The notes under the pieces are model-generated. The model ran no database searches and was not told the origin of the DNA. It worked only from the letters and a program-made list of their open reading frames with translations. 64,000 nucleotides of DNA from Nitrospirota bacterium (lineage in GTDB: Bacteria > Nitrospirota > Thermodesulfovibrionia > Thermodesulfovibrionales > UBA9159): the NCBI GenBank assembly GCA_023475105.1, contig JAMCWJ010000094.1, positions 50,626-114,625 on the forward strand, given 5' to 3'. This document shows, one piece after another, positions 39,086-43,278 of the stretch. A program made the translations under genes and the position numbers. How positions within the stretch are numbered: the first letter of the stretch is position 1; each line of letters opens with the position of its first letter.

Positions 39086-40126
39086 GGGTCAATTCTTTCA
39101 TCTTGACAATCTTCCTTCAATTCGCTCTGCGAGCTCTCTGAGGCTCTTGTCCTTTTCCAATCGCTTCCTCAGCCTTTTTCTCTCTTGGCTTACGGTGCTG
39201 TAGTCTACCCCAAATATCTTTCCGATCTCTACACCTTTCATCCCCCCAATCCGATAGAGAATATCCATCGCGACACGTCGAAGGGGGTGCCTGGACTTGG
39301 TGATAGCCTCAAACTGATCCCCTGTTTCCATTTCTATTGCTCGAATAATCTCCTCTTCAGCCTTGTATCGCGCTACCTCCCTATGCCCGGGGCTCTCTCG
39401 GTCCTTTCCCTTTATGAAGCTCTCTTTAATCCATTTAATAAATGCATCTCCCCCAAGCACACTCTGACCCACAATATTTTTCTTGACCTCCAATCCCTCA
39501 GCAATATCCTGCAGGAGTCTTTCCTTGTATGATCTTCTGCCTCGCGCTGTATCGCCGCCGTACTCTGAAAGGACGGCTCCATAGTGGACCAAATTGTTCC
39601 TTCGCTTTCCGAGATACCCGTTAAAACTGCTCCAAGGATAGTCCTGCAGATAGCGGAATTTGTCCTCAACTGTCTTTGTTCTCATTGATTTGATCCGTAC
39701 GGGGTTGAGATGTATATATCGCGAGAGAACGGACAGATACTCATCTTTATCCACAAGGATACTCTTATATCGCCCTTGGTAAAGGTGGCCGGACCGCTTG
39801 TATTTTCTGTTGTAGAAACCCGTATAACTAACATTGAAGTGCCTCATGAACTCCCCCAAATTGCCCAAAGGAGTTTCCACAAGAAGATGGAAATGATTCT
39901 CCATAAACACATAGCTATACAGCTTTACAGTATAAACATGGAGAGAATTAGATAGAATGCGAATAAACTCTTGTTTGTCTTTGTCATCCCTAAAGATCGC
40001 TTTGCGCTCATTACCTCGGCAGGTCACGTGGTAGAGTGCCCCCGGATATTGTATTCTCAATGGTCGAGACATAATGAAAGATTACAGGAACTAAGAGGAC
40101 TTGTCAATAATAAAGAATTGACCCCC
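39086..40126 (-). mobile_element. REP-associated (IS200-like Y1) transposase element with hairpin ends
   Basis: Ends GGGTCAATTCTTTCATCTTGACAA (39086-39109) and TTGTCAATAATAAAGAATTGACCCC (40101-40125) are imperfect inverted repeats; each contains GTCAA-N10-TTGAC. Confidence 0.8.
39098..40072 (-). CDS. REP-associated tyrosine transposase (Y1_Tnp) with C-terminal DnaA-like HTH
   Basis: MSRPLRIQYPGALYHVTCRGNERKAIFRDDKDKQEF...YVFMENHFHLLVETPLGNLGEFMRHFNVSYTGFYNRKYKRSGHLYQGRYKSILVDKDEYLSVLSRYIHLNPVR. Confidence 0.93.
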   Translation of the reverse strand: MSRPLRIQYPGALYHVTCRGNERKAIFRDDKDKQEFIRILSNSLHVYTVKLYSYVFMENHFHLLVETPLGNLGEFMRHFNVSYTGFYNRKYKRSGHLYQGRYKSILVDKDEYLSVLSRYIHLNPVRIKSMRTKTVEDKFRYLQDYPWSSFNGYLGKRRNNLVHYGAVLSEYGGDTARGRRSYKERLLQDIAEGLEVKKNIVGQSVLGGDAFIKWIKESFIKGKDRESPGHREVARYKAEEEIIRAIEMETGDQFEAITKSRHPLRRVAMDILYRIGGMKGVEIGKIFGVDYSTVSQERKRLRKRLEKDKSLRELAERIEGRLSR

Positions 40127-42623: not shown

Positions 42624-43097
42624 TCACTTCAGCACCGCATCAATCGTTAAGGCCAGCTCCGCACTGCTCATACGACCCTCAACCCGTTTTGCGATCTTTC
42701 GGTCCCGCGTGATGAATACCGTGGCGGGAAGTGCTCTTACCCCAAGCGCACCGGCAATGCCGTTGTCCATCCCGACCGGGAAGGTGATCCGGTAGGTCCC
42801 CGCAAACTTCCTTATCTCCCGCTCTCTGCTCATTGCAAAGACGCCGATGAACACCACCCCCCTTGCCCTGGAGGAGAGATACGCGCCCTGAAGTTCGGGG
42901 GCCTCTTTCGCGCACTCAGGTCACCAGGGTGAAAGTACGGCGACGACGAGCGGCATGCCGCTGAATGCTCCTGTACTGACCGTTTTTCCGTCTACGGTCC
43001 TGAGCGTAAAATCCTTCACCGTATCGTGGCCGGAGGCGGCGCACGCGGGCACTGAGATCGAGAGAATGACCGCGCATATGCCCGCCGTAAATCTCAT
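42624..43097 (-). CDS. TlpA/thioredoxin-like periplasmic protein with in-frame TGA at the first active-site Cys position (candidate selenoprotein, UxxC)
   Basis: ATG at 43097, preceded by AGGAG; MRFTAGICAVILSISVPACAASGHDTVKDFTLRTVDGKTVSTGAFSGMPLVVAVLSPW[TGA]PECAKEAPELQGAYLSSRARGVVFIGVFAMSREREIRKFAGTYRITFPVGMDNGIAGALGVRALPATVFITRDRKIAKRVEGRMSSAELALTIDAVLK*. TGA at 42923-42921, one continuous frame on both sides. Confidence 0.75.
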
Positions 43098-43278
43098 CGT
43101 TTGTCTCCTTTCTCCGTTCCGTATTTTTTCCCTTTGCCCTTCGGGTTTGCCCGCATTAGATTTTCACTATTTCCTCTGATAAGATTAGCACAGGCGGGTG
43201 TTTTTGTGAATCGTCCGGGAGCGTCCGCGGCGATTCCGGACAGCTAATCGCTATTGTTCCGCATAGACGATTCTTTGC

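Follow-up and report, generated by a model that had tools for sequence, protein, structure and literature searches.

A ResA/TlpA-Like Protein of a Nitrospirota Bacterium With a Predicted Selenocysteine at Its Catalytic Position

Described UxxC Selenoproteins and ResA-Like Proteins

The thiol-disulfide oxidoreductase ResA is known from cytochrome c maturation in Bacillus. Selenoproteins with a related active site have been predicted, and a 2026 review lists a family of Prx-like thiol:disulfide oxidoreductases (PF00578) with a UxxC or UxxU motif (PMC13188914 Table 1; also PMC9312934). Further predicted UxxC groups are Redoxin and the TlpA-like or "thiol-disulfide isomerase-like" proteins of cd02966 (PMC13188914, PMC9312934).

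The gene described here lies in a window of 64,000 nucleotides, by which we mean the whole stretch of Nitrospirota DNA that was analyzed (GCA_023475105.1, contig JAMCWJ010000094.1). Its product shares both the AhpC-TSA domain and the U-x-x-C motif with the Prx-like PF00578 family. The domain scores above the gathering cut-off (67.1 bits versus 26) and the motif reads U59-P-E-C62, so by domain and motif definitions the protein falls in this family, the reference of which is WP_010940744.1. Unlike that family, the present clade is centered on Nitrospirota. With a Redoxin match of 3.6e-16 and its UxxC motif, the window protein can also be likened, by description, to the Redoxin and cd02966 groups, and the boundaries among the predicted UxxC groups are fuzzy.

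The window protein resembles ResA in its best fold match and in the E-x-P sequence after the second active-site Cys (E65-A-P67), but the two are only 24% identical and the window protein has Sec for the first Cys. It scores 67.1 bits with the ResA model NF002854, below the cut-off of 170 bits. The WAxxUGC_long family (NF041054) is likewise ResA-like and carries Sec in its active-site region, but has a UGC motif and a longer protein, and the window protein reaches 13.4 bits against a cut-off of 300. The thioredoxin-like selenoprotein with a HUIPC motif (NF047660) and SaoT (NF040730) are UxxC thioredoxin-like proteins, as is the window protein; when eight clade members were searched, neither model was among their matches at E ≤ 0.01. 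The NCBIfam models for ResA, StoA, DsbE, WAxxUGC and TsoB gave weak matches, none of which reaches its cut-off where one is shown. None of the NCBIfam selenoprotein models recognizes the window protein above its cut-off.

We conclude that the window protein belongs to an already predicted kind of selenoprotein, perhaps as a distinct subfamily. With it comes a well-supported clade of ResA-like proteins in which some members have Sec and others Cys, a set useful for testing the benefit of Sec at the ResA-type nucleophilic position. Standard annotation misses the gene, the two halves of which would come out as fragments or go uncalled.

Reading Frame of the Window Gene

On the minus strand one frame runs from the ATG at 43097 to a stop codon at 42626–42624 (157 aa; CDS 42624–43097, stop included), and its sole break is a TGA at 42923–42921, codon 59. 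This is the frame of the original prediction, whose coordinates and translation were correct. Read through, the frame gives ...VVAVLSPW-U-PECAKEAPELQGAYLSSRARGVVFIGVFAMSRE...RALPATVFI..., with ...SPW-U-PECAKEAPELQ... around the motif. The gene is free of any second internal stop or frameshift. Its terminal codon is TGA too, and the homologs end within about two residues of there. The Pfam matches (AhpC-TSA 1.8e-18, Redoxin 3.6e-16) span residues 25–144 in an alignment that crosses the TGA.

The second Cys and an ALPATVFI segment had been described as intact after the TGA, and the read-through translation indeed has Cys62 and RALPATVFI. Cys62 (42912–42914) is invariant in our two alignments (A1 and A2) and, by analogy with ResA/TlpA, is presumably the resolving Cys of the UxxC motif. 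Glu65 (42903–42905), three residues past this second active-site Cys, is aligned in the homologs as well, with Asp in its place in L088. Pro124 (42726–42728), the Pro of ALP, aligns where the cis-Pro of a thioredoxin fold would be. An AGGAG Shine-Dalgarno sequence was found as predicted at 43109–43105, 7 nt 5' of the ATG. By inspection, the N-terminus of the read-through protein is hydrophobic and export-signal-like. The putative signal covers about residues 1–20 (43038–43097), and the N-terminus is of low confidence in the structure model.

Conservation of the UGA Among Homologs

A TGA at the same codon was found in ten distinct genes, the window gene included, and the homologs, 35–48% identical to it, come from Nitrospirota and from two deltaproteobacterial MAGs. 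These non-identical genes represent different genera and phyla, and such a recurrence is well past what chance would produce. In 101 related genomes searched in six frames, six close homologs had exactly one internal TGA, which in translation is the first position of W-U-x-x-C in all six. The TGA-bearing genes are those of the window, G073, G059 (= G084), G089, G006 and G033, together with bin398 (CP070737, recorded as a chromosome), S139_46, Dive96_bin4.212 and CG2_30_60_27, the latter four being added by alignment-based, order-wide and phylum-wide searches. A first scan of the named-genome contigs with a single protein as query gave no match; the alignment query succeeded. Dive96_bin4.212 is a deltaproteobacterial MAG and CG2_30_60_27 a Desulfobacterales MAG, in which the Trp of the motif is replaced. 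The genes of G059 and G084 were counted once because their DNA is identical across the compared overlap.

Three members of the group have Cys instead of Sec (WCPPC in G043, WCPEC in G213 and G223). In a maximum-likelihood tree the ten Sec and three Cys members form one clade (support 100/99), and the Cys members occupy two places within this 13-member clade. At the second Cys, the TGA-bearing genes (10/10) all use the codon TGC and none uses TGA. Identity to five Sec homologs is 47–62% after the UGA compared to 34–41% before it within the mature part, which indicates that the sequence past the apparent stop is constrained as protein. Since the TGA is kept in ten distinct genes, a base-calling error or a nonsense mutation is untenable as its origin. 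The UGA stands where the clade members keep Sec (10) or Cys (3), as is looked for in bacterial selenoproteins.

The original prediction had placed the TGA on the first Cys of a W-C-x-x-C motif, and homologs do carry TGA or Cys at this very codon. Comparison with them was also to reveal any stops or frameshifts elsewhere; none appeared, and the TGA is kept at precisely codon 59. The central claim, that the gene encodes a selenoprotein and is not a nonsense mutant, is supported by the conserved TGA of the ten genes and by the Sec machinery of the genome.

Two points on these loci deserve a comment. About 2.5 kb were compared between L003 and L004 (G059:C62, G084:C271) and all of it is identical, although these draft genomes are assigned to different genera; mis-binning or the same organism is the likely cause. 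In G006 the 3' end of the homolog is lost near the contig end (L006 1–150, G006:C29) and an ORF starting MSKTKRNRYSAEFKARVAREAMKEE comes next, so the gene was apparently cut by a mobile element.

Search for a SECIS Element

The bacterial SECIS would be expected at 42878–42920 of the minus strand, directly after the UGA. A hairpin with CCUGA/UCAGG arms had been proposed here. The arms are present, but folding predicts a different structure and the stability of the region is ordinary, with single-sequence folding giving z = -0.25. RNAalifold found no consensus structure in 24 windows over the ten genes, and post-UGA stability across these genes did not exceed that of controls in which the synonymous codons were shuffled. 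Folding past the UGA, which the original prediction had put forward as a check, thus gave no significant fold, whether from the single sequence or by consensus. A synonymous codon bias was seen at Ala +7 (GCC/GCT only, p about 0.02) and at Leu +10 (CTT/CTC in 9/10, p about 0.03), both p values being uncorrected for roughly 40 columns, and this bias may be the sole, weak trace of a SECIS. Bacterial SECIS elements are diverse, and the missing fold support is therefore not contrary to the selenoprotein reading.

Selenocysteine Machinery

The genome that contains the window (G000, 92% complete) was searched for the machinery family by family. It has a tRNA-Sec with anticodon UCA, SelA (603.1 bits) near SelB (379.6 bits; one SelB passes the cut-off), SelD (344.6 bits) and YedF. 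All four components that a selenoprotein calls for, tRNA-Sec(UCA), SelA, SelB and SelD, which the original prediction had wanted to see, are thus present in one genome. SelD has an in-frame TGA of its own near the N-terminus (SSCAG-U-ASK), and one such TGA occurs in SelD of 8/8 genomes tested. The SelD gene (G000:C31:4984–5907, L069; SSCAG-TGA-ASK) is itself a selenoprotein gene.

Among the genomes with a UGA-containing gene that were tested, a set apart from the deltaproteobacterial records, SelD was found in every one and SelA and SelB in all except G073. In this draft genome (96% complete, TGA-bearing) no SelA or SelB was above the cut-off; a strong tRNA-Sec match and SelD are present, and the absence may be an assembly gap. 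For the draft genome G059, only a tRNA with a Cys anticodon is among the tRNA-Sec matches listed.

A tRNA-Cys (GCA) with a long variable arm adjoins yedF in the window genome (G000:C20:25398–25489, L051 5399–5494). It scores 60 bits as tRNA-Sec with Rfam, and similar second tRNA-Sec matches occur in many genomes of the order. It is similar to the published selC* tRNA-Cys, for which Nitrospirae are among the reported sources; in some Desulfobacterales, selC* tRNA-Cys has a UCA (opal) anticodon and occurs with a second SelB and CysRS (PMC7609411).

Predicted Structure and Proposed Action

A structure model was built from eight sequences with Sec entered as Cys. The model (pLDDT 86.2) has a ResA-type thioredoxin fold in which residue 59 lies directly before the helix 60–79. 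The top PDB matches are ResA (2f9s, 1st9; E 5.6e-15, rmsd 1.3), followed by other TlpA/DsbE-type proteins, and a ResA E80Q entry is also among the fold matches. The spacing U59-P-E-C62-A-K-E65-A-P67 follows the ResA pattern, and from this spacing we take Glu65 to be the equivalent of ResA Glu80, three residues after Cys77.

There is very little doubt that the gene encodes a small redox protein, probably exported, with its UGA read as selenocysteine at the catalytic position. We are highly confident that the product is a thiol:disulfide oxidoreductase of the ResA/TlpA type, probably secreted or periplasmic, with SelB-delivered Sec at codon 59; Cys62 would be its resolving residue. The most likely function is that of a thiol:disulfide oxidoreductase that works in the periplasm and uses a selenol as nucleophile. 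SelB would bring Sec-tRNA(Sec) to the UGA. In the finished protein U59 would attack, through its selenol, disulfides of the substrate or other oxidized species, and Cys62 would then resolve the mixed selenenylsulfide. Glu65 and the cis-Pro loop may shape the reactivity, as in ResA.

Genomic Context and a Broken Paralog

The window gene, apparently a single-gene unit, has lysS upstream, in divergent orientation, and an unassigned ORF followed by an RNase E/G gene downstream. In the neighborhood of the gene, several relatives instead have a TsoR-like ArsR regulator, an MbdU-type protein or a small MWNGWGPMYGWW-type membrane protein. The ArsR regulator scores 79.9 bits with the TsoR model, below the cut-off of 115, and the MbdU-type protein scores 618 bits, over the cut-off of 600. 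The G033 locus also contains a MerA-like flavoprotein (357 bits, below the cut-off of 454). A DUF5714/DUF2284 protein in G059 (L058 12702–13895) scores above the NF045648 cut-off (double selenoprotein MbdU).

The window genome has such a locus on contig C55, which includes a DUF5714 (MbdU-like) gene and an ArsR regulator and where the TlpA gene is cut. Here the beginning of a conserved membrane-protein gene runs directly into the final, C-terminal third of TlpA (G000:C55:25995–26171, L054 2993–3217), and a similar truncated copy was seen in L089/L169. We tentatively consider, with somewhat more doubt than belief, that the clade is a separate selenoprotein subfamily still lacking a model, which ancestrally sat in an ArsR(TsoR-like)/membrane protein/MbdU-type locus; the locus copy of the window genome would have been broken by deletion, leaving the solitary window copy as the sole intact one. 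If true, the ancestral locus would have served metal(loid)- or selenium-linked periplasmic redox chemistry.

Alternative Readings

The gene could be a pseudogene in which a Cys codon was mutated to TGA, so that the protein stops at residue 58. There is just one in-frame stop, and the genome does contain a truncated paralog (C55). The identical codon is, however, TGA in nine other divergent homologs, the window gene has no other stop or frameshift, and conservation past the stop is no lower than ahead of it. Conservation of the TGA across phyla refutes this reading for practical purposes, and we regard it as extremely improbable. It is also very unlikely that the UGA is read as cysteine by a selC*-type tRNA-Cys. 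Such a tRNA is present next to yedF (C20), some Desulfobacterales have the UCA-anticodon form with a second SelB and CysRS (PMC7609411), and two of the homologs come from deltaproteobacterial MAGs. Yet the C20 tRNA has the anticodon GCA, unable to pair with UGA, and a single SelB exceeds the cut-off, which makes Cys insertion at UGA unlikely in the window genome. The same genome has a genuine UCA tRNA-Sec with SelA, SelB and SelD, and the second Cys of the motif is always TGC in the ten genes. For the deltaproteobacterial homologs Cys insertion remains a rival. The several genes with an in-frame TGA might further suggest that TGA is a sense codon genome-wide (Trp or Gly), but TGA terminates the window gene at a conserved end point, the neighboring genes are open under table 11, and a Gly or Trp would abolish a catalytic position occupied by Cys in relatives. 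Because a terminal TGA ends the same gene, global reassignment was rejected, and we give it a practically negligible probability.

Another alternative concerns the function and leaves the selenoprotein status as it is. The protein might mainly be a metal(loid)- or selenium-handling redox factor of Tso/MbdU-type operons and not a general thiol:disulfide reductase. The TsoR-like regulator and MbdU-type protein near relatives, and the MerA-like flavoprotein of G033, speak for this, and Tso operons are described in the review as multi-selenoprotein loci. The window copy, in contrast, lies outside any such operon, and we find this role possible but rather unlikely.

Other Observations in the Window Genome

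A second ResA-like gene with an in-frame TGA (FWATW-U-PYC) is located at G000:C35:7992–8459 (L056 2993–3460). Homologs of this WUPYC gene have one TGA in G082, G057 and G058, and are stop-free in G006 and G081. The existence of this second gene, with TGA-bearing homologs of its own, counts in favor of the selenoprotein reading of the window gene. Within the window, a 324-aa ORF on the minus strand (39098–40072) resembles, by inspection, a REP-associated (Y1-type) transposase.
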